DNA of 54,191 nucleotides, taken from contig NZ_JHZS01000005.1 of NCBI RefSeq assembly GCF_000620865.1, positions 1 through 54,191 on the forward strand, in the 5' to 3' direction. Shown here one piece after another: positions 10,326-45,813 of the stretch (within the stretch, counting starts at the first letter, position 1; every line of letters starts with the position of its first letter). A program made the position numbers and the translations under genes. The notes beneath the pieces are model-generated. The model worked only from the letters and a program-made list of their open reading frames with translations. It was not told the DNA's origin and searched no databases. The DNA comes from Exiguobacterium sibiricum 7-3 (lineage in GTDB: Bacteria > Bacillota > Bacilli > Exiguobacteriales > Exiguobacteriaceae).

Positions 10326-11324
10326 TTAGATGTTTATTTCTTTAAATGCTCCAGAGTATATTTTCCCTATTAAAGTAAAACCATTTGCGCTCAATTTCTT
10401 TGTCACAAATGGTATTTCTCCTATCGTTTGTTGGGTAACTTCAATCAAACCGAGTGGTTGAATTACTTTAACAAGATGGACTTTTAGCATTTCGTCTAGG
10501 GGTTTAGTTTTAACCTCAGGAATACCGTCTGCTAACAACGCATGATATTCGATTAGTAACTCTAATAAGGTTAGATGCGTTTTATCTAATCCAAATTCTC
10601 TAGCATCGTCTTCATCTATATTTATAGATCGACTAGTTAATGCATATAAGATTTCCTCATAAGTAAAATCACCTAATTTAGTTTGTCTCGATTCTGGAGC
10701 AGGGCGCGAAGTTTCTCTAATCAAGATTTGTTGCTTAGACTTTACTTTCTCTAATTCTCGTTGCAATTTTTCGACTTCTTGATACGCAGGGTGTTTTTCT
10801 GCTCTAATCCATCCATTTAAGCCTAAATGGACTTCTGCTTCAGAAAGAGATCTCATTACATATGTTTTAAGTTGTTCTAAATGATTAATATTAAGGACAG
10901 CGTTTTGCGACGTAATTCTATGCTTAAAACCTCTAAATCGTGCTCTATGGTGACTTTCATACACTTCTTCCAATGAGAATGCACCAGAATCAACTTTCGT
11001 TCTCAATATATCATTAGATATTCTAAATACGAAAATGGGCTTATTTAGTTCACGTGCCAAAAGATATTCATAATTAACCTGACTAGTGTTCATGAAAAAT
11101 GAGGGTCCAAACTTTTCTCCCAAAATTAAAATGAATACATCTGAATCAGTGATTAAACGAGTCATGAGACCCATATGAATATTAACAGAAGGAGAGGTGT
11201 CTTCTGAGTAATACAAATCTGATGGAAAATGATTTGCATCTAAAATAGCTTGCTTTACCAATTCATGTTCTTCAGTCAAAGCATCGAAACCAGATGATAT
11301 ATATACTTGCATTTTTTTCTCCAA
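10326..11324 (-). CDS. DUF4062 domain protein, candidate TIR-like effector
   Basis: About 332 residues. The N-terminal 110 match DUF4062: MQVYISSGFDALTEEHELVKQAIL, then a mid segment with SEDTSPSVNIHMGLMTRLITDSDVFILILGEKFGPSF. This is a TIR/nucleoside-deoxyribosyltransferase-like fold often at the N-terminus of immune or signalling proteins. A coiled coil follows (EVEKLQRELEKVKSKQQILIRE, about 190-215) and then a helical, possibly winged-helix, C-terminus. A TTG at 11324 has AAGGAGG nine bases upstream; ATG 11312 with GGAG is the alternative. It is the only minus-strand gene in the replication-maintenance backbone. It is divergent from the large structured RNA at 11377. The role is unknown; a phage-defence role is a guess from the family. 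Confidence 0.68.
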   Translation of the reverse strand: MEKKMQVYISSGFDALTEEHELVKQAILDANHFPSDLYYSEDTSPSVNIHMGLMTRLITDSDVFILILGEKFGPSFFMNTSQVNYEYLLARELNKPIFVFRISNDILRTKVDSGAFSLEEVYESHHRARFRGFKHRITSQNAVLNINHLEQLKTYVMRSLSEAEVHLGLNGWIRAEKHPAYQEVEKLQRELEKVKSKQQILIRETSRPAPESRQTKLGDFTYEEILYALTSRSINIDEDDAREFGLDKTHLTLLELLIEYHALLADGIPEVKTKPLDEMLKVHLVKVIQPLGLIEVTQQTIGEIPFVTKKLSANGFTLIGKIYSGAFKEINI

Positions 11325-11376
11325 AGTAAAGATCCTCCTTATTACTAATATGTATATAGTAGCATTAATATCTTTA

Positions 11377-11880
11377 GGGCTCATAGAACGTCCTGTAGCG
11401 CATATACATGCTGACAGGACCTAACTACCGCTGACAGCCTACTCCGGCCGATAACGACGTTTCCTAAGCGCCCAAGGCGCTAGGATCCGTACGTTCCTGT
11501 CCATCGTTTAACGGCAGCCACGGAGCGTAAGTCAAGATCAAATGCATTATGCTAGCACTATCGTTAACGCTAGCATTGAAAAAAGGAAGTCCGGCCAATG
11601 CCGGACGAGAGCATTTTTCCGATTTGCCCCTTGGAGCGTACACTTCACTGACCAGGGCTGATGATGTAGGACCCGAGCCTCGGCTTCGCCTCTCGGGATC
11701 CTCCAGCACCTAGACCTGGACTCCTCATCAAGGGACGGAAACTTTGTATCATTCTCTGAAGATCGGAGAATGATACAAAGTTTCCTCAGGAGATCCCTTG
11801 ACACGTCGTAGGCAGCGAGTGTCCGCATGCGGTGCCAAACCGGCAAAAATAAGCCTGGTGAGGCCTTTTAAGCGCCCCAA
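11377..11880 (+). ncRNA. Candidate large ornate structured RNA (about 500 nt)
   Basis: A G+C-rich island in an AT-rich plasmid with many stable helices and no credible gene. The first 154 bases (11377-11530) are a diverged copy of 15908-16061 with compensatory changes. Further helices: ATGCTAGC/GCTAGCAT (11545-11574), GTCCGGC/GCCGGAC (11590-11608), CCCGAG/CTCGGG (11680-11698), TCAAGGGA (11728-11735) with TCCCTTGA (11794-11801), enclosing a perfect 18-bp stem 11739-11756/11766-11783, and a long-range CCTTGG (about 11631) with CCAAGG (about 11876). A weak -10 (TATAGT, 11355-11360) lies upstream. The plus strand is favoured because the copy at 15908 is in the leader of a plus-strand gene. It recalls the ornate RNAs of phages and plasmids (GOLLD, ROOL), but I cannot assign it to either. 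Confidence 0.6.
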
Positions 11881-11897
11881 GGAGACAAAGACGGAAA

Positions 11898-11911
11898 AAC
11901 CAAGTTCGAAA
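11898..11911 (+). promoter_or_regulatory. Candidate small-RNA target site in the leader of the 68-aa gene
   Basis: AACCAAGTTCGAAA pairs over 14 bases, with one G-U pair, with TTTCGAATTTGGTT of the candidate small RNA at 13830-13843. The following ACGAAAAGAGGAA, which contains the ribosome binding site, is shared with the leader of the RadC-like gene. Confidence 0.5.
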
Positions 11912-11938
11912 ACATCAAAAACGAAAAGAGGAAAACCA

Positions 11939-12145
11939 ATGAAATCAGTTCAAGAGATTACAGTGCTAGGATTCATCAACTATTGTTTGAAAGCAGATTA
12001 TGAATCGCTTAAACAATACTTAGGGTGTACTCAAGAAATATCTGAAAATGAAGAAGATTTTTTAGATAAGATTGAAAATATGCTTAATCTGATTACTGAA
12101 GCAAAGTTAGATGGGACATTTTTCTTCATTGATGAAAGTGAATAA
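11939..12145 (+). CDS. Small protein of unknown function (68 aa)
   Basis: I do not recognise this 68-residue acidic protein. It is predicted to be mostly helical and has no membrane segment; a run of glutamate and aspartate (EISENEEDFLDKIENML) fills the middle. The reading frame is open much further upstream through the structured RNA, but ATG 11939 has AAGAGGA seven bases before it and the protein-like composition starts there. Its leader shares about 30 bases with the next gene, including the AACCAA-TTCGAAA motif that the candidate small RNA at 13798 could pair with. Confidence 0.6.
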   Translation: MKSVQEITVLGFINYCLKADYESLKQYLGCTQEISENEEDFLDKIENMLNLITEAKLDGTFFFIDESE

Positions 12146-12150
12146 AATAA

Positions 12151-12199
12151 CTATTTTTAGTTTAAAAATAGTGTAATTTTATACTTTTTATGTTATAAT
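12151..12199 (+). promoter_or_regulatory. Promoter of the RadC-like gene with a TAGTTTAA-type palindrome
   Basis: CTATTTTTA and TAAAAATAG at 12151-12171 are perfect 9-base arms around GTT, containing TAGTTTAA. They are followed by an extended -10 box, TGTTATAAT, at 12191-12199. The palindrome sits over the -35 region, so a protein bound there would control this promoter. Confidence 0.65.
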
Positions 12200-12244
12200 A
12201 GATATAGGAGGTGAGGGAGAGAAAACTTGTAACACCAAGAGTTT

Positions 12245-12258
12245 TACCAAATTCGAAA
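12245..12258 (+). promoter_or_regulatory. Candidate small-RNA target site in the RadC-like leader
   Basis: TACCAAATTCGAAA gives 13 consecutive Watson-Crick pairs with the candidate small RNA (13830-13843). It lies about 20 bases before the AGAGGA ribosome binding site of the gene at 12289. Confidence 0.5.
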
Positions 12259-12288
12259 GTATAAAAAACGAAAAGAGGAATGTCATTT

Positions 12289-12738
12289 ATGATGCTAGAG
12301 TCAGTTGTAGAAGTAGTTAGAATTTCCCAAGAAACTAAGGTACGAAAAGGACGAATTGCTACTCCAATCAGTAGTCCTAATGAAGTTGCTAATTTAGCTT
12401 CATTTTATATCGGTGATGAAGATCGCGAAGTTCTATTAGTAATTGGTTTAAATACTAAGAATAAAATTAATATGATTAACCGAGCGCACATGGGGTCACT
12501 TAGTTCCTCGATCGTTACGCCTAGAGAGGTTTTCAAACCTCTCATTCTAAATAACTGTGCTTCATTTGTAATCTGTCATAACCATCCGAGCGCAGATTTA
12601 AGACCGAGTTCCGAAGACATCCAGTTAACGCAACGATTTGTTGAAGTTGGGGACTTAATGGGAATTAAATTGCTAGATCATCTGATTGTAAATAATGAGA
12701 CGGGATTCCTTTCATTAAAAACTGAAGGTTTGTTCTAA
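12289..12738 (+). CDS. RadC-type JAB domain protein
   Basis: A 149-residue protein consisting of the JAB/MPN domain found at the C-terminus of RadC. The metal-binding signature HNHPSADLRPSSED is complete (HxH, then S and D), near residue 97, preceded by the family's REVFKPLILNNCASFVICHNHP stretch. The helix-hairpin-helix region of full-length RadC is missing, as is usual for plasmid and prophage versions. RadC-like JAB proteins are common beside plasmid maintenance genes, but their substrate is unknown. I chose ATG 12289, nine bases from AGAGGA; ATG 12280 is too close to it. The leader carries a candidate small-RNA target and the promoter a palindromic operator. Confidence 0.85.
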   Translation: MMLESVVEVVRISQETKVRKGRIATPISSPNEVANLASFYIGDEDREVLLVIGLNTKNKINMINRAHMGSLSSSIVTPREVFKPLILNNCASFVICHNHPSADLRPSSEDIQLTQRFVEVGDLMGIKLLDHLIVNNETGFLSLKTEGLF

Positions 12739-13179: not shown

Positions 13180-13749
13180 ATGAAAACTTGTATTTATTGT
13201 GGTGGAAAGGTTGAACTATTATCAGGTGAAATATATAAATGTGCATTTTGTAACGTCAATCTTGGCCCTAATAGTCCATATGGTGAGGTAGGAGAAGATG
13301 GTGCTCGACCTCAAATAAATGGTTTTAAAATAAGGGTTATCTTGAGAGATGAAGATTACTTAGCAGGAATTTCTATTAATGAACTTTTGAACACGATGAC
13401 ATTAAGTATGATTTACTCGATTTTGAAAGAGATGAGACTTATTCGTTCTGAAGCATATTTACTTTTAAAAAACGCAAAAGATTTTTTAAAAGTAAACGCC
13501 GATAAGCTATCGGAACAAGAAAAGCGTGATTTTGAACAATCAATTAATTCACAGGGAGAAACGTACGAGTTCTGGACAAGAAAAATGTGGATGGTTGAAA
13601 ATGTTTGTATAAAGAAGTTTGGGTACTGTCCTGCAGCTATTCAAGAAAGAACTTTAGATCAGATGGAACAGACTACAATTAAGTTGTCTAGAAAAACGAT
13701 GAGAATTAACAGCAACAATAACGTTTCACGTGAAACGGCGAATGTATAA
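13180..13749 (+). CDS. Unknown protein with an N-terminal zinc ribbon (189 aa)
   Basis: The first 30 residues carry two CxxC knuckles (CIYCGG and CAFCN), a zinc-ribbon pattern. The remainder is mainly helical, with a basic C-terminus rich in asparagine (MRINSNNNVSRETANV). I do not recognise the family. A zinc ribbon of this sort usually binds nucleic acid or another protein. The ATG at 13180 has GGGAGAT seven bases upstream. It lies at the end of the small-gene cluster, directly before the candidate small RNA and the parM-like gene, so a part in regulating them is possible. Confidence 0.6.
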   Translation: MKTCIYCGGKVELLSGEIYKCAFCNVNLGPNSPYGEVGEDGARPQINGFKIRVILRDEDYLAGISINELLNTMTLSMIYSILKEMRLIRSEAYLLLKNAKDFLKVNADKLSEQEKRDFEQSINSQGETYEFWTRKMWMVENVCIKKFGYCPAAIQERTLDQMEQTTIKLSRKTMRINSNNNVSRETANV

Positions 13750-13782
13750 ATGTATTAATTAGTATTGTTTCGGGAATATTTT

Positions 13783-13791
13783 TGTTAAAAT
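13783..13791 (+). promoter_or_regulatory. Extended -10 promoter of the candidate small RNA
   Basis: TGTTAAAAT (TG, one base, TAAAAT). A TTGTTT at 13765-13770 is upstream, but the spacing (15) is short, so the extended -10 would carry most of the recognition. Transcription would start near 13798. Confidence 0.5.
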
Positions 13792-13797
13792 AAAAAT

Positions 13798-13879
13798 ATG
13801 AGGAATTAAAGCTCTTTTCGCTTTAATTTTTTCGAATTTGGTTAGAGTATTCTTGCGGAAACAAGAATACTCTTTTTTT
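13798..13879 (+). ncRNA. Candidate small regulatory RNA with a seed complementary to three plasmid leaders
   Basis: About 80 nt, with a clear three-part design. A 5' hairpin (AATTAAAGC 13804-13812 with GCTTTAATT 13820-13828) comes first, then a single-stranded stretch holding TTTCGAATTTGGTT (13830-13843). An intrinsic terminator ends it (12-bp stem AGAGTATTCTTG/CAAGAATACTCT, 13844-13873, then a T run). The single-stranded stretch is the reverse complement of AACCAAATTCGAAA before the parM-like gene (14029-14042), where pairing would reach the ribosome binding site. It also pairs with the leaders at 11898-11911 and 12245-12258. It may instead be just the terminator of the preceding gene; the complementarity argues otherwise. 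Confidence 0.58.
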
Positions 13880-13907
13880 AATGTAATTATAAATTAATTT
13901 TAGTCTT

Positions 13908-13966
13908 AATTTAAACTAAAAATAAATTTATTTTTAGTTTAAATTAGAGTTAATTAGTGATATAAT
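13908..13966 (+). promoter_or_regulatory. parM-like promoter with a 38-bp perfect palindrome
   Basis: A perfect palindrome covers 13908-13945. Its 19-base arms start AATTTAAACTAAAAATAAA. It is followed by an extended -10 box, TGATATAAT, at 13958-13966. The palindrome overlaps the place where a -35 box would be. Two smaller palindromes of the same type follow at 13995-14011 and 14018-14031. This is a likely operator, and possibly the centromere, of the actin-type segregation system. Confidence 0.7.
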
Positions 13967-14028
13967 TTACTTGTAAGTAATAATTGCTATTCATTAGTTT
14001 AATTAAAACTATTGATAGTTTATTTTTA

Positions 14029-14042
14029 AACCAAATTCGAAA
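14029..14042 (+). promoter_or_regulatory. Candidate small-RNA target overlapping the parM-like ribosome binding site
   Basis: AACCAAATTCGAAA is perfectly complementary over 14 bases to 13830-13843. Its last bases run into AAAGGGG (14041-14047), the ribosome binding site for ATG 14055. Pairing would block translation. Confidence 0.55.
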
Positions 14043-14054
14043 GGGGTCATTTAT

Positions 14055-15290
14055 ATGACATACTCACTAATTACAGGATTGGATACTGGTAACACTAGCA
14101 CTAAGACTAGCTATATTGATTCGAAAACGGGTAACATTGTTTCTTTTCCAATTCCTTCAGTTATTGCTCCAGCTCCTCCAAGCGTGATTGAGTTACATAC
14201 TGAAGCCAGTAACCATAAGATCAATCCAGAAGAAATGCTACACGTATATATTGAAACAGATTCTTTAGAACAGCATCAAAGAAAGAGTTATTTCTATGTC
14301 GGTCAATATGCGATCGATAAAGCAGATATGCAGCAACCGCAAATCGATACTGACAAGCATAATAGCTCTCTTCATAAAATCGTGTCACTAACGTCACTGG
14401 CTGTTGCAGCCTTAAAAGATAATATTGCAAGTACTGAAGATGAAATCGTAGTTGAAATTAACTATTCTGGTGGCCTACCAATTGAAGAACATAAAAAAGT
14501 AGGGCAGAAGCCGTTAGAAGATCTTAAAGGAAAACATAAGATTCAGTTTTTAGATGGTCCTGCTAAGGGAAAAACAGTTGTATTGAACATTACAGGTGGA
14601 AAGCTTCGAGTTGAGGGCGCGACTAGTGGTGTCTCATTGTCATTCGATATTCAATCTAATGAGCTTGTTGCTACAAAAGACCAAAATCTTTTGACATCAC
14701 CTGAAGCGAATTATATTGTTGCGGATCTTGGAGCCGGAACGCTAGATGAAGCCTTGTATGAAAACAGTCAACTTAATAAAGTTGCATCAAGAAACGTTAA
14801 TCTGGGTACTAACACATATGTTGACCAGTTACTCGATAAAGTACTGGAAATACCTGAGTTTCAGCCAATCATTGAGGCGTTGAAAGTAAACAACCAGGAT
14901 GGTAAACCGTACCGTACTCGTGAGGAGTTTATGAAGCAAGTGATCTATCCAGGCGTAAAGTTAGCTGTTGAAGGAAAGACGCCTAAATTCACTGTTTCTT
15001 GGGGACGTAAACGTAACATTGACTTTACTCGGCAGACATTAGAGGTAATGGAAGCGTATGCTTCAGATGTTATGAAAGAAGTAGATTCTTACTGGAGTGT
15101 TAAAGGTGTTAACGCAGAACACTTTTATTTAGTCGGTGGTGGCGTTCTCTTTGGATATGAGTTCTTTAAAAATGAAGAAGATATCAAATTACCGGATGCA
15201 TCAATCATTTCGGAATCGCCGTTCATTACGAGTCGGGCATATTTGATCGCTAACTACTTTGAGCAAAAACTTGCAGGTGCTTTGAATTAA
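14055..15290 (+). CDS. ParM/Alp7A-type actin-like plasmid segregation protein
   Basis: A 411-residue actin-fold ATPase. Phosphate-1 motif GLDTGNTSTKTSY is near residues 8-20, phosphate-2 IVADLGAGTLDEALYE near 222-237, and the adenosine motif EHFYLVGGGVLFGYEF near 354-370. Plasmid actins of this kind (ParM, AlfA, Alp7A of pLS20) polymerise into filaments that push plasmid copies apart, with an adaptor bound to a centromere. The next gene fits as the adaptor. The promoter carries a 38-bp palindrome and the leader a candidate small-RNA target, so expression seems tightly controlled. An additional ParA-type system is encoded at 5.2 kb. The ATG has AAAGGGG upstream. Confidence 0.87.
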   Translation: MTYSLITGLDTGNTSTKTSYIDSKTGNIVSFPIPSVIAPAPPSVIELHTEASNHKINPEEMLHVYIETDSLEQHQRKSYFYVGQYAIDKADMQQPQIDTDKHNSSLHKIVSLTSLAVAALKDNIASTEDEIVVEINYSGGLPIEEHKKVGQKPLEDLKGKHKIQFLDGPAKGKTVVLNITGGKLRVEGATSGVSLSFDIQSNELVATKDQNLLTSPEANYIVADLGAGTLDEALYENSQLNKVASRNVNLGTNTYVDQLLDKVLEIPEFQPIIEALKVNNQDGKPYRTREEFMKQVIYPGVKLAVEGKTPKFTVSWGRKRNIDFTRQTLEVMEAYASDVMKEVDSYWSVKGVNAEHFYLVGGGVLFGYEFFKNEEDIKLPDASIISESPFITSRAYLIANYFEQKLAGALN

Positions 15291-15907: not shown

Positions 15908-16061
15908 GGGCTCATAGAAGTGTCTGTAGCGCATTTCATGCTGACAGACACTAAATCTACCGCTACTGCCTTATTCAAGCCGATAACAACGATCCTTTGC
16001 GCTTACAGCGCAGGATTCGTATGTTCCTGTCCTTTCATTTAACAGGCAGTACGGAGCGTAA
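15908..16061 (+). ncRNA. Second copy of the 154-nt structured RNA domain (leader of the 45-aa gene)
   Basis: It matches 11377-11530 along its length with many substitutions that keep base pairing. Helix A is GTGTCTGT (15920-15927) with ACAGACAC (15944-15951), against GTCCTGT/ACAGGAC in copy 1: three pairs changed on both sides. Helix B is ATCCT..GCGCT with AGCGC..AGGAT (15992-16016), against TCCTA.GCGCC/GGCGC.TAGGA. Conserved unpaired blocks include GGGCTCATAGAA at the start, TGTAGCGCAT, and CGGAGCGTAA at the end. It lies between the ParR-like stop codon and the ribosome binding site (AAAGGAG) of the gene at 16081, so it may be a cis-acting leader. Confidence 0.66.
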
Positions 16062-16080
16062 TAAAGGAGAGATATACTGC

Positions 16081-16218
16081 ATGGGAGTTGTAATTCACGC
16101 AGCATCAAGATTTACTAATAAAAAAAATACGGCTTCAAACAAAATCGATTCGGCTTTGCTGGAGACGATGTTTAAAAAAATAGAAGAGATTAAAAAAGTA
16201 GAACAAAAGAAATCATAA
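16081..16218 (+). CDS. Small protein of unknown function (45 aa)
   Basis: A 45-residue basic peptide, mostly helical towards the C-terminus (LLETMFKKIEEIKKVEQKK), with no membrane segment. The ATG at 16081 follows AAAGGAG by about ten bases; the frame is open upstream, but that part is the structured RNA domain. It ends the parM-like transcription unit, with a strong terminator one base after the stop codon. No function can be assigned. Its leader RNA makes it the only gene placed directly under that element. Confidence 0.5.
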   Translation: MGVVIHAASRFTNKKNTASNKIDSALLETMFKKIEEIKKVEQKKS

Positions 16219-16244: not shown

Positions 16245-16339
16245 GCCCACACGTTGTATATCGTTTATTGATCATTTAACAATTGCGATTTTTTACAACA
16301 CAGATTTATAAAAAGTAATTGAGAGTACTTGCTATATAA

Positions 16340-16545
16340 GTACTTTTAGCCTATTTATAGTTTTTAATTAATTTATAAAAAGTTTTTTAATAGTTTAATT
16401 AAAAACTATAAAAAAATTAAAATAGGTTTTTATAATAACTGAATTATTAGAATTCACTTTTATATTATAAAAAACTAAAGATTTAATGGTATAAAACCGA
16501 TATTCATAGTTTTTATTTAAACTAAATATAGTTTAAATAAAAGTT
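16340..16545. promoter_or_regulatory. AT-rich palindrome cluster before the transfer region
   Basis: Two perfect inverted repeats share the words TAGTTT and AAACTA: TATAGTTTTTAATTAA (16356-16371) with TTAATTAAAAACTATA (16395-16410), and TTTTATTTAAACTA (16511-16524) with TAGTTTAAATAAAA (16529-16542). CCTATTT and AAATAGG flank the first. The segment lacks a gene and is almost free of G and C. It could be the centromere of the actin system, the operator of the transfer operon, or both. Confidence 0.6.
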
Positions 16546-16720
16546 TTTAAATGTAGGTAAATCGGAAATTAATTCAAAAAAATGAGATAATAGGGCTTTA
16601 CAAAACTCTAAATTATCCTTAATCTGATAAAGAAGTCATGGATTATCCATGTAAATCCATCTAAAGTCATTTTTAAATAGCTATTAATGTAATATTATAC
16701 TTTTGGGTGGTGAATTTTAT

Positions 16721-16936
16721 TTGTACATTATCGCATTAATACTGTATGTACTCGTTGCGTTGGTAGTCGCCTATTTGTTTGTAAAAGGAACATACTGGAT
16801 GACCCAACTTATTTTCGGAAGATTTATAGCAATACTCAGTTCTACTGTGGTCGGAATCTTTTTTTTGATCTCAATCATTGTATTTATCAATTTTGTTAAC
16901 AGCAACTTAGAACCACCAGTTAGTTTTATCGAATAA
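16721..16936 (+). CDS. Small membrane protein (71 aa)
   Basis: A 71-residue protein that is nearly all membrane: hydrophobic segments at about 2-27 and 34-60, then a short polar tail (NSNLEPPVSFIE). The start is TTG at 16721, seven bases after GGGTGGTGA; the upstream TTG at 16703 would overlap that site. It is the first gene after the palindrome cluster and probably the first gene of the transfer region. The family is unknown. Small two-helix proteins at the head of conjugation operons sometimes act in entry exclusion, but nothing here proves it. Confidence 0.5.
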   Translation: MYIIALILYVLVALVVAYLFVKGTYWMTQLIFGRFIAILSSTVVGIFFLISIIVFINFVNSNLEPPVSFIE

Positions 16937-17809: not shown

Positions 17810-20217
17810 ATTCTCCTTTGATAGTGAAAATGCGATTTAAAACTCCTACAGCAACTAATCAAAAGTTGAATCGCAATTACGCCACGTACATTGCAACTAG
17901 ACCAGGCACTGTAATGAATAATACGAAAAGCGTACTAGACGAATTCTCACCGGATACTGCTGCAGGACATGTCAAATATGCATCTGAAAGACCAGGATCG
18001 CATGGACTTTTTGGAAAAAGTCAGGACGAACTTATTTCACTTACTACCATTCAAAATGAATTATCGAAGCATAAAGGGATTGTATGGCAGTACATAGTTT
18101 CTTTACGGGGAGATGATGCCGCTAATCTCGGATTCGAAAAAAAAGGTGATTGGGAGAGATTCATGCGTGCTACAACTGACCAGGTCTTTAAAGAGATGGG
18201 GATCAGTAGCAGCAATGGAAAATGGGTAGCAGCTTATCATGAAGAATTAGGACATCCTCACGTACATCTGATGATGTGGGAGAAAAATCCGCAAAAAGAA
18301 GAAGGAAAACTAGATCGTAAAGAAATGAGAAATGTACGAAATATTTTCTTGAAGCATATTGCTAAAGAAGAGCGTCAACAACTAAATATTTTAAAAACAA
18401 TAAGCAGAGACAACATTGGAGAAGTAGCAAACCAGCTTCTAGATAAGAGTATTCTAAGTCTTGTCGGAAAAGAGAATGAGACTCCGAATGAAATTAAACT
18501 AGATCCTAAACAATTGAAAACCGTATATGCAGAATTTAATCAGCTTGCAGAGATGATTCCTACTAAAGGTCGACTTGCATATGGATATATGCCTGAAGAG
18601 GTTAAAGAAGAATTGAATAACTTCTCGAAGTGGATGTTAGACCAACCTCAATTTAAATCTGAGATGACTAATTACCTTGAAGCCGTTCAAAAGTTAGCGA
18701 AATTTCATTTGAAAGATGCACAAAAAATTGAGGACTCTACAAATAATACTCTTAAAGACTTAGAAAAGAGATTAGCAAATCAAGTGTTGAAATCGGTTGA
18801 TCTGTATCGGAAATCAAATCGTGTCGAAGTAAAGCAAAAAAACGTATTAGAGTTTGAACAGGCTCTTTTAAGCTCGAATACTCTTATTAAGTCACTGGAG
18901 AAACAAGTAATTGAAGTTACGAAAAGTCTTTTACTAGATAAGGGCTTGAATAAGAACGAAATGGTTAAGGTGTTTGAAGAACTAAAAGAGAACGCTGGGA
19001 TGGAAATAACTCTTAATGAGTTTTTAGCAGCTAATAAAGTAGACGTAACCAATGTTGAGTCTAAAGTAAGTGACTTAGCAGCGTATTCGCCGTTTCTAAA
19101 AGCTAAATTTGATCTCGAGATACCTTCAACAGATTTAAGTAGAAAACCTAGCATAAGCAAAATCGAATGGGAGATGCTAAAACGATCCTTAGATTTAAAA
19201 AGTGATCCACCATTCGAAGTTGATCGAAAAGTAGAACTTTTAGTTGAAAAAAAGGAACTTACTCATGCACTTTCAAATATGATTTTGTCTGAACATGACA
19301 TGAGAAATACGGTGTTCAAGCAATTGATTATCATGAAAGAAGCTAATATAGATCCAATCAACCAACTATCCGTATTAAGAAATTGCTTAGAGAAAAACAA
19401 AATACCTTTTGAATCACAATCTAACTGGATTGATCAACAAGTTAGTAAAGTAGCGACCCAAAAGTTCATGGCCGGACAAAATGTTTGGACTAAGCTTGAG
19501 AATGAATCTGGATTAAATATGAACTATCCATTTTCAAACACATATGAGTTTAGTCCAAGCAGGGAGAGCGCAATTAAAGTCCTTCAGGAAGTTGAGTTGA
19601 AGATGGATAAGATTAATCTCGAATCAATATCTCCAACTCATATCAAGTTGCTCCAAAAGCTCACTGGTATTTCAAAAGTGACGTTAGAAAATCCAGACTT
19701 GAAACAACTCCTGGAACGAAAAGGACAGAATAACCAAGCAAGCATCAATTTAAATGCTCTCAACGCTAAATGGGAGCTAAAAAACACTGAGCGCACCACT
19801 TTAAATAGAGCAGCTACAGTGCTCATATCAAGTGGAATGAATGAACAACAAGCTACTGCAGTATTGAGTAAATGGAACAAAAATACACAAAGTCTTGTCC
19901 CCGAAAAAAATATTGAAGCTGTAGTAAAGGCTGTAAATAGTAGAAATGTAGAAATGGAGAGATATGGAGGGAATGTATCGCTCAGTAAGCAAGAGTATAG
20001 ATACATGCTCTCAGATCTAAAATTAAGTGGTCTAAAAGATGTTTATAACTACCCAAAAGAAAGTGTACAGATAAGTGTAATTACTGATTTGTGGAAAGGC
20101 GCATTTAAAGGGCTTCGAGATGAAATCAACCAATCGGAGTACGAAGCTCAAAGAAGTCTTCGGAGAAGGCTGATGAAAGAAAAGAATAACGAGAGAAAGA
20201 ACTCACGAGAAAGGTAA
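17806..20217 (+). CDS. MobL/MobP3-like conjugative relaxase
   Basis: An 803-residue relaxase. The N-terminal 160 residues form a HUH nuclease domain: early tyrosines Y25 and Y28 as candidate nucleophiles, a YASERPGSHGLFG segment near 58-70 typical of the Gram-positive MobL/MobP3 proteins, and the metal site HEELGHPHVHLMMW (H145, H150, H152, H154). It would nick oriT and stay bound to the transferred strand. Most of the rest (about 200-800) is helical and charged with no recognised motif; in other relaxases this part binds the coupling protein and accessory factors. The size is larger than the roughly 400-residue relaxase of pLS20. A VirD4-like gene follows nine bases later. Confidence 0.85.
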   Translation: MNSPLIVKMRFKTPTATNQKLNRNYATYIATRPGTVMNNTKSVLDEFSPDTAAGHVKYASERPGSHGLFGKSQDELISLTTIQNELSKHKGIVWQYIVSLRGDDAANLGFEKKGDWERFMRATTDQVFKEMGISSSNGKWVAAYHEELGHPHVHLMMWEKNPQKEEGKLDRKEMRNVRNIFLKHIAKEERQQLNILKTISRDNIGEVANQLLDKSILSLVGKENETPNEIKLDPKQLKTVYAEFNQLAEMIPTKGRLAYGYMPEEVKEELNNFSKWMLDQPQFKSEMTNYLEAVQKLAKFHLKDAQKIEDSTNNTLKDLEKRLANQVLKSVDLYRKSNRVEVKQKNVLEFEQALLSSNTLIKSLEKQVIEVTKSLLLDKGLNKNEMVKVFEELKENAGMEITLNEFLAANKVDVTNVESKVSDLAAYSPFLKAKFDLEIPSTDLSRKPSISKIEWEMLKRSLDLKSDPPFEVDRKVELLVEKKELTHALSNMILSEHDMRNTVFKQLIIMKEANIDPINQLSVLRNCLEKNKIPFESQSNWIDQQVSKVATQKFMAGQNVWTKLENESGLNMNYPFSNTYEFSPSRESAIKVLQEVELKMDKINLESISPTHIKLLQKLTGISKVTLENPDLKQLLERKGQNNQASINLNALNAKWELKNTERTTLNRAATVLISSGMNEQQATAVLSKWNKNTQSLVPEKNIEAVVKAVNSRNVEMERYGGNVSLSKQEYRYMLSDLKLSGLKDVYNYPKESVQISVITDLWKGAFKGLRDEINQSEYEAQRSLRRRLMKEKNNERKNSRER

Positions 20218-34093: not shown

Positions 34094-35545
34094 GTGAGAA
34101 AAATTAGTACAAAAATTGATTTGTTAAATCCATCGAAGGGCGTAAATCAATCAGCCAATAAAATTGATTTCTTTGAGATGTCCTATGCTGACAAACAAAG
34201 TAAGACAAAATTATTAGGAGAAAAAGAACAAGACCTAATTGAAGAATCTGTAGAAAGGGTTAGAAAGTATCTCATTGAGACAAATAAGTCATTGTTAGAA
34301 TCGTCATTTCTTGATAAGGAGAAGAGACAAAAATTAAACTCAAGAATTTCAGAGTTCATTCAAAGGAATGGTATTGCTATTCCTAACATTGATCACCAGG
34401 AACTTGTAAGTACAATACTTGATGAAATAACTGGATTTGGTATCATCCAGCCACTTATTGATCGAGATGATATTACTGATATATTCGTTAACGGAGTGAG
34501 TTCGATTCGATATATTGGTCCAAACGGAGACACTATCTTTAAGGATCCTTATACCGATGAAAAAATCACATTCTCAAGCGAAGAGGAAATTTTAAGACTT
34601 GCATATAGATTAGTAAACGTTACGGAGTCTACTTTAACAACTGCAAAGCCATATACGGATGCAGCTCTTCCTAGATTGCGATTGAACATAATGAAATCAG
34701 ATATTTCTGGAATCGGAACCTCTATTTCAATACGAAAAAGTTCTTCAGAACTTAGAGCAACTCGAGAAAGAATGTTACGTACCAATCAAGCTTCGTTGGA
34801 AGAATTAGACTTCTTTAAGGCTGCAGTTCAAGCGAAGCTTAAAATTCTTATTGTGGGTGGTACTGGTACAGGGAAGACAGAATTTATCAAACACCTAGCC
34901 CAGCATATTCCCGATAATGAACGAACTTTAGTCGCAGAAGATGATCCTGAGTTGTTCTTACATGAATTGTATCCCTCTAAACACTTCTACACTTTTGAAT
35001 GTCGTATGACTGGTAACCAAGAAACTGATATTCCATACAGTATAGGTTTGAAACTGGGACTACGACAGCATCCTCGAAGAATCATTGTCGGAGAAAGTCG
35101 GGGAGAAGAAGCTATGCAAATGATAGAATTTTTTGAATCAGGACATAGTGGATTCACGTCAATTCATGCTGAAAGTAGTGAAGAAGCTCTTCAACGTCTC
35201 AAAAAGATGTGTCTACGATCAGGTGTTAATTTAAGTGGAACAGATATTCTACAATCTATAGCTGGAGCTTTTGATTTAATTGTTGTTTTAGAAAAATTAG
35301 AAGACCATAACCGTTATTTTACTCAGGTATCTGAAATCGCTAAATTTGATTATGGAAGTGGCCAAGTAATATTAAACGATTTATTCGGTTTTGATTATAA
35401 CAAAGACGATTTTCAATTTAATACTGAAGGAAAAGTTGAGAATTTAAATGGTGTACACATCATAAGAAATAAGTTATCGGAACGTTTGAAGAAAAAGCTA
35501 TCTAGATCATTAGCGAATCCAGAACTGTACAGCAGCTTAACATAA
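34094..35545 (+). CDS. tadA: TadA/CpaF (VirB11-like) secretion ATPase
   Basis: A 483-residue hexameric ATPase that powers pilus assembly. The N-terminal domain (about 45-230) has GFGIIQPLIDRDDITDIFVNG. Walker A is GGTGTGKT (255-262), the Asp box VAEDDPELFL is near 278-287, and the His box HSGFTSIHAES near 349-359, followed by ALQRLKKMC. It can double as the VirB11 of the conjugation system, which has no other. GTG 34094 is the conventional start but lacks its own binding site; GAGGTGA overlaps it, five bases before an in-frame ATT at 34103, which may be the real start. Confidence 0.88.
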   Translation: MRKISTKIDLLNPSKGVNQSANKIDFFEMSYADKQSKTKLLGEKEQDLIEESVERVRKYLIETNKSLLESSFLDKEKRQKLNSRISEFIQRNGIAIPNIDHQELVSTILDEITGFGIIQPLIDRDDITDIFVNGVSSIRYIGPNGDTIFKDPYTDEKITFSSEEEILRLAYRLVNVTESTLTTAKPYTDAALPRLRLNIMKSDISGIGTSISIRKSSSELRATRERMLRTNQASLEELDFFKAAVQAKLKILIVGGTGTGKTEFIKHLAQHIPDNERTLVAEDDPELFLHELYPSKHFYTFECRMTGNQETDIPYSIGLKLGLRQHPRRIIVGESRGEEAMQMIEFFESGHSGFTSIHAESSEEALQRLKKMCLRSGVNLSGTDILQSIAGAFDLIVVLEKLEDHNRYFTQVSEIAKFDYGSGQVILNDLFGFDYNKDDFQFNTEGKVENLNGVHIIRNKLSERLKKKLSRSLANPELYSSLT

Positions 35546-45691: not shown

Positions 45692-45813
45692 AGACTGGGT
45701 CCGAGCTTCTTACGGAGTGGGTGACTTAGTCTTATTTTTATAAAAAACTAAAGAAGAGTTTTTAGACAGTTAAAAAATGTTATTTTAAGAACAAGAATTC
45801 TTATTTTATACAG
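45692..45813 (+). repeat. Diverged direct repeat, copy 2 (leader of the response regulator)
   Basis: It corresponds to 43381-43500: GACTTAGTCTTATTTTT, then GTTTTTAGACAGTTAAAAAATGTTATTTTAAG, then AAGAACAAGAATTCTTATTTT. The two-component operon may therefore be expressed from a promoter of yolD origin. Confidence 0.6.

Follow-up and report, generated by a model that had tools for sequence, protein, structure and literature searches.

The window, the whole stretch of DNA analysed here, is contig C2, 54,191 b long, from a genome of 3.08 Mb, and its positions 13799-13880 would encode a terminator-ended small RNA (sRNA) of about 75-80 nt that pairs in trans with the leaders of plasmid genes. A trans-acting repressor of parM and of two neighbouring genes, T1 and T2, is the best-supported reading of the sequence, and we put the probability that a genuine small RNA, under selection, pairs here with three or four plasmid targets at roughly two in three. 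In the leaders of T1, T2 and a further gene, T4, found in relatives, the hairpin loop of the RNA is predicted to cover the Shine-Dalgarno (SD) sequence and the linker to pair about 10 nt upstream of it; at parM the linker alone would pair, up to the SD. We infer from this arrangement that pairing blocks translation of the target genes in plasmid-carrying cells. The original prediction, a trans repressor tying plasmid segregation to two neighbouring genes, stands as regards the repressor, whereas the regulated set is better seen as a small regulon that joins parM with establishment-like genes. Conservation in three relatives strengthens the repressor reading, and so do two additions to the first observation, a second pairing block (loop on SD) and a fourth target in the relatives; a third addition is that the likeness of the T1 and T2 leaders ends at the target module.

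The unit is made up of the following elements (positions in the window).

13765-13791, + strand: candidate sRNA promoter, with TTGTTT (13765-13770), a 15-nt spacer and an extended -10 element, TGT-TAAAAT (13783-13791)
13799-13832, + strand: 5' hairpin, from the fold; identical in 4/4 plasmids
13830-13843, + strand: linker seed TTTCGAATTTGGTT, from the fold and complement searches
13844-13880, + strand: intrinsic terminator with a 12-bp stem and U-run, from terminator prediction

As had been proposed for an 80-nt unit, 13799-13880 folds as a hairpin, a linker and a terminator, with coordinates and sequences correct, and the fold (-25.9 kcal/mol, z -4.43) was matched in stability by none of 200 shuffles. 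The linker had been described as single-stranded; this applies to 11 clearly unpaired bases (CGAATTTGGTT), whereas the leading TTT of TTTCGAATTTGGTT belongs to the hairpin's weak base. The 7-nt hairpin loop with its closing pair, CTCTTTTCG (13812-13820), forms an anti-Shine-Dalgarno block. The promoter elements were read directly from the sequence and are not in the consensus promoter list; the extended -10 box noted earlier is present at 13783-13791, and transcription would start at about 13798-13800. An Rfam covariance-model search gave no match for the sRNA and two chance-level matches elsewhere, below the gathering score.

The targets and the genes behind them are listed below. All of them lie on the + strand, like the sRNA, 0.2-1.9 kb from it and without overlap.

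11390-11938, + strand: long, structured, GC-rich leader of T1, EGeRS1-like in GC content and fold
11899-11933, + strand: T1 target module (linker site 11899-11911, SD block 11922-11931)
11939-12145, + strand: T1, a 68-aa protein with no Pfam family at E 0.001
12191-12199, + strand: candidate extended -10 of T2 (TGT-TATAAT), read directly; absent from the consensus list, which requires a -35
12246-12280, + strand: T2 target module (linker site 12246-12258, SD block 12269-12278)
12289-12738, + strand: T2, a RadC-like JAB-domain protein (Pfam RadC, E 2.4e-36, computed on the ORF from 12280; start set as in pEYLC1.2)
13938-13966, + strand: candidate parM promoter, 10/12 consensus with TG before the -10
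14029-14047, + strand: sRNA target of parM, AACCAAATTCGAAA continuing into the SD AAAGGGG
14055-15290, + strand: ParM/Alp-type plasmid segregation protein (Pfam ALP_N, 2.6e-10)

The parM product is annotated as ParM/StbA in pEYLC1.2, a plasmid of Exiguobacterium acetylicum and the only plasmid-collection record matching this region, and in most records with a matching ParM. On the strength of the pEYLC1.2 match the window is taken for a plasmid of Exiguobacterium, a genus of soil and water. A MobL/MobP3 relaxase gene is present in the window, and in pEYLC1.2 a VirD4-like gene follows the relaxase gene.

The complement reported at parM was recovered: AACCAAATTCGAAA is exact at 14029-14042 and runs into the parM SD. 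The two near-exact complements were also as described, the one preceding T1 (11898-11911) being one base off, with a G-U pair, and the one preceding T2 (12245-12258) one off at the outermost base. The sequence ACCAARTTCGAAA occurs exactly four times in the 3.08-Mb genome, at the sRNA and at the three leaders, and a reversed control gave no occurrence. Complements with up to three mismatches were not in excess in the window (14 found, 15.5 expected), nor were complements of at least 12 nt between its terminator-preceding stretches and its leaders (7 pairs, against 6 with reversed leaders). Since 12-nt complements are not in excess as a class, the case is placed on the longer, multiple and two-block matches. 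Among the script-detected terminators, the sRNA is the sole unit with 13-14-nt complements to two non-opposite leaders.

The second block lies in the hairpin loop. CTCTTTTCG exactly complements CGAAAAGAG, the SD region of T1 (11922-11931) and T2 (12269-12278), and exact copies of CGAAAAGAGG are found nowhere in the window besides these two SD blocks. The order of the blocks fits a single antiparallel duplex, with the loop on the SD and the linker on the site about 10 nt upstream. Random 30-mers drawn from the window minus its 11.7-14.2 kb matched both the T1 and T2 modules by at least 9 nt in 93 of 40,000 cases, which puts the contribution of the loop block, on top of that of the linker, at about 1 in 400. 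At parM the linker block stands alone and ends in the SD. The predicted contact is two-part and SD-covering for T1, T2 and T4, and that of parM is the weakest of the set.

A very improbable reading is that ACCAARTTCGAAA serves a plasmid repressor protein as its DNA operator, with one copy in inverse orientation. In its favour are the palindrome TTCGAA, the recurrence of the site in leaders, as is usual in regulons, and the use of a Reg repressor for the establishment genes of p576 (PMC8708921), but the T1 site is located some 500 nt inside its leader, 28 nt before the start codon, and an operator leaves unexplained the loop-SD match, the collinear order of the blocks and site differences that are all compatible with G-U pairing.

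The duplex prediction against plasmid leaders, proposed earlier as a check, favoured the same genes. Plain duplex energies of -29.6 for T1 and -29.2 for T2 were the best of 155 leaders and were equalled by only 2 and 1 of 2000 random window 45-mers, respectively; parM, at -19.1, was outside the best 12 of the 155, and 45 of 2000 random 45-mers were as good. With self-structure counted, that is, with the cost of opening each RNA included, T1, T2 (with two start codons) and parM took the first four places among 144 window leaders. Two duplex matches, at 18163 and at 35114, fall within long ORFs and were rejected as targets.

In a trans repressor, pairing with the SD would lower translation. It is quite improbable that the RNA is real and acts instead as an activator, a copy-number or incompatibility sensor or, with a toxic small protein as its partner, an RNA antitoxin. 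Such roles are common among plasmid antisense RNAs, and T1 is a small protein without assigned function; however, SD pairing predicts repression, the replication gene is not among the twelve best self-structure-counted matches, and T1 is on inspection acidic and not membrane-like.

The T1 and T2 leaders are equal at 31 of 35 positions within the module and at about chance level on both sides of it, indicating that otherwise dissimilar leaders share exactly the part that pairs with the RNA. It had been argued that duplication of leaders could explain why the targets look alike; the modules of T1 and T2 plainly derive from one another, but their likeness is confined to the 35-nt module and parM has only 14 nt in common with T2. 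A minus-strand unit in the T1 leader (11869) with a 12-nt match to T2 was discarded, its match being explained by the modules being copies.

Four closely related plasmids were compared: the window, pEYLC1.2 (G001:C3), G013:C22 and G016:C4. A parM of this kind was found in 4 of 19 Exiguobacterium genomes, our own included, and the same four hold the RNA with strong scores in a covariance-model search that covered 38 genomes, which also gave a weak fifth match in G011 (E 0.0093); G002 showed a partial DNA match (E 2e-5). Within the class, the RNA pattern was present in 4 of 398 genomes, all Exiguobacterium, and absent from 394. The RNA core (13799-13842) is identical at 44/44, 44/44 and 43/44 positions in the three relatives, against 159/185, 156/185 and 137/187 in the flanks (14-27% change; Fisher p 0.006, 0.002 and 0.0002, with positions treated as independent). 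GTATTGTTT and TGnTAAAAT are kept in all four plasmids and the promoter spacer has diverged; in the terminator stem of pEYLC1.2 one pair is changed on both sides and another to G-U, with pairing kept.

This conservation bears on the alternative explanation that the unit is a mere terminator of the upstream operon (ORF 13180-13749) plus a hairpin, the leader likeness being a functionless relic of an inverted duplication. The unit does lie 50 bp behind that ORF and does end in a strong terminator, the T1 and T2 modules are copies of one another, and one related contig, G018:C2, retains a target without the unit. Yet the core is conserved far better than its flanks, with a promoter-like element kept in front, terminators need no conserved hairpin loop and linker, and parM has only the linker block in common; we consider this explanation unlikely.

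Further support for a trans-acting RNA comes from the target sites of the relatives. A fourth target, T4, with both blocks, is present in all three, and in pEYLC1.2 it precedes a 115-aa protein. All 16 target sites (15 in the four plasmids and one in G018) pair unbroken with the seed. Where a site departs from perfect complementarity the change is one of three, each an A-to-G substitution that leaves a G-U pair; for G013 and G016 the search pattern permitted only G at the variable positions, while the sites of pEYLC1.2 were found permitting any two mismatches, and the four homologous leaders of each relative are all accounted for. The comparison of related plasmids proposed in the original prediction thus found a seed that never changes and unbroken pairing, but no covariation of seed and targets in the four plasmids, which are too close for joint changes to be visible, and a target without RNA in G018:C2.

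That plasmid contig, 105 kb long and scanned over its whole length, retains a perfect target in a shortened leader and lacks the sRNA: it has no further seed match at up to one mismatch, its best covariance-model match has E 0.23, and it holds no module complement longer than 11 nt besides the target's own opposite strand. The leader (L086, 10017-10460) is about 110 nt shorter, apparently between two GGAGCGTA repeats, and the gene behind it seems altered, with no good start codon seen by eye after the SD. The target may be a relic here, and this contig is a case of a target persisting without the RNA.

Pattern searches of IMG/VR with the target module, the RNA and the leader gave 0 matches each. 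A pattern scan of genome contigs returned five matches, from Exiguobacterium sp. RIT594 and four unrelated organisms without a two-block target. No similar sRNA was found in stretches of 9.9-13.2 kb from six plasmids with a distant ParM (L054-L059, six of the 14 records besides pEYLC1.2), in one genome stretch (L087) or in pLS20. Six of these seven stretches had no complement of at least 12 nt, and in L055 a single leader was matched, over 13 nt; pLS20 had eight units with 12-13-nt complements against 11 reversed-control matches. The covariance model gave best E values of 0.15 and 0.4 in pLS20, and in the seven stretches no match at E 1 or better.

The repressor could serve to keep parM and the establishment-type genes low once the plasmid is settled in its host, and a burst of expression would follow when the DNA enters a cell without the RNA. 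Because an RNA repressor stays behind when the DNA moves, it offers a simple route to rapid, transient establishment expression. A more far-reaching version, to which we give tentative and rather doubtful status, makes the RNA the master switch of an establishment regulon: donor RNA would keep T1, T4, the RadC-like protein and ParM low, the genes would fire in the RNA-free recipient on transfer, and the RNA would then shut them down there. If true, it would offer one explanation of the transient expression from EGeRS1-type leaders, and a single tiny RNA would run a small regulon of several genes, the segregation motor among them, on a Gram-positive conjugative plasmid.

FinP is a short stem-loop antisense RNA that masks the ribosome-binding site (RBS) of the plasmid gene traJ by loop contact, and the RNA described here is predicted to act on plasmid genes by a similar contact. 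However, FinP is cis-encoded and has one target, whereas this RNA is encoded apart from its three or four targets and is not transcribed opposite any of them. RNAIII and RsaE are Gram-positive trans-acting sRNAs with anti-SD, pyrimidine-rich loops. The present RNA would resemble them in acting in trans and has a pyrimidine-rich loop, and it is encoded on a mobile element like the plasmid sRNAs XrrA/XrrB (PMC7843513) and the SGI1 sRNA (PMC9299015); all of these have other targets, and their sequences, compared through Rfam only, gave no match. StbA of R388, encoded beside oriT, is likewise a plasmid regulator, linking stability and conjugation (PMC3098194), but is a protein.

A close counterpart in logic is that of p576, a clade II plasmid of the pLS20 family, where the ribbon-helix-helix repressor Reg_p576 acts on EGeRS2 promoters and, because the protein stays in the donor, a burst of establishment genes takes place in the recipient (PMC8708921). 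In both systems one plasmid-encoded trans factor would repress several scattered establishment-type genes, but Reg_p576 is a protein acting on promoters, whereas here an RNA would act on ribosome-binding sites, with induction in the recipient as its expected outcome. An RNA repressor would, by this analogy, do the job of the p576 protein. The claim of novelty held in a search of the open-access literature, outside which most subscription journals lie: no described sRNA adjoining parM or acting on establishment genes was found. In a leading-region paper the term "small RNA" is absent from the main text as far as accessible (PMC11541004), and in the accessible text of another paper RadC is named solely as a DUF3085 neighbour (PMC12826799).

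The leader of T1 is unusual in itself. Its GC content is 51.4%, against 36.8% for the window, and 11390-11960 (571 nt) folds to -207.5 kcal/mol. The leaders before T1 and T4 measure 543-549 nt (six full copies aligned); each of the three relatives has two long copies, one of those in G016 being split over contig ends, and the window has one long and one short copy. Each copy of this noncoding element of about 550 nt precedes a small gene, and Rfam gave no match for it. The copies are as follows.

Window, 11390-11938: long copy
L005, 1578-2124 and 5690-6235: long copies
L050, 4391-4936, 8715-9259 (-): long copies
L052, 5795-6337: long copy
Window, about 15917-16062: short version of the 5' part of the element
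L050, 255-413 (-): short version
L051, 4092-4250: short version

When long and short copies were aligned, 13 of 45 predicted pairs were changed on both sides, nearly all along the long/short split, suggesting that the element is likely to be a structured RNA or single-stranded DNA element. The short copy in the window stands directly before the RBS of a 45-aa ORF (about 16081-16218), downstream of parR. In the window leader, 11737-11785 forms a nearly perfect 23-bp hairpin (96%); six other aligned leader copies miss 4 nt on one arm, which leaves a bulge. Divergent from the window leader is a DUF4062 gene (10326-11384, - strand) with a weak ThsB TIR-like match (E 0.0017). The gene in this position varies between copies, resembling exchangeable defence or anti-defence cargo, and DUF4062 was rejected as an obligatory partner of the leader, since in G013 and G016 the T4 leaders have other genes in the divergent position.

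The EGeRS1 leaders of pLS20 are 420-750 bp long, occur in several copies, form multiple hairpins and lie directly before the RBS of establishment operons; their GC content is 51.4 vs 37.7%, and most fold to about -220 kcal/mol as RNA (PMC8708921). The leaders described here are similar in being about 550 nt long, GC-rich, highly structured, immediately before an RBS and present in several copies per plasmid. Membership would call for more than 60% identity to EGeRS1 of pLS20, and the T1 leader has no significant blastn match to it; the leaders therefore only resemble EGeRS1 and are not members. The likeness extends to promoters. The EGeRS1 paper detected no constitutive promoter in these leaders, argues that EGeRS1 is not a single-stranded promoter and, in section 4.1, calls the mechanism of transient expression unknown (PMC8708921). 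In the leader here no promoter is evident by consensus, as no sigma-70-like consensus site was found on the + strand of 11000-12446.

No separate sRNA was found in pLS20; a search for RNAs complementary to the pLS20 leader tails (10-12-mers) gave, among the matches listed, mostly the leaders themselves and scattered short matches. In a chromosomal reporter, EGeRS1-B stops expression from an upstream promoter (PMC8708921), and as the accessible text mentions no plasmid in those cells, EGeRS1-B may need no RNA in trans. EGeRS1-B contains an internal pyrimidine stretch, CCTTTTTTTAGACGCCTTTTTTGTTTTTG (L065, 46075-46103, -), that nearly complements its own A-rich 3' tail and RBS (about 45769-45800, -). 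This stretch is possibly an anti-Shine-Dalgarno acting in cis, and would apply the logic proposed here within a single RNA.

A perfect 20+20-bp palindrome (13907-13946), placed after the sRNA terminator and before parM, overlaps the parM -35; G001, G013 and G016 also match it in the inverse sense, and it is a candidate operator or centromere. Between the parR and relaxase genes, a stretch at about 16250-16750 has 18-22% GC and many TAGTTTTTAATTAA-like words, and is possibly a parC or oriT region.
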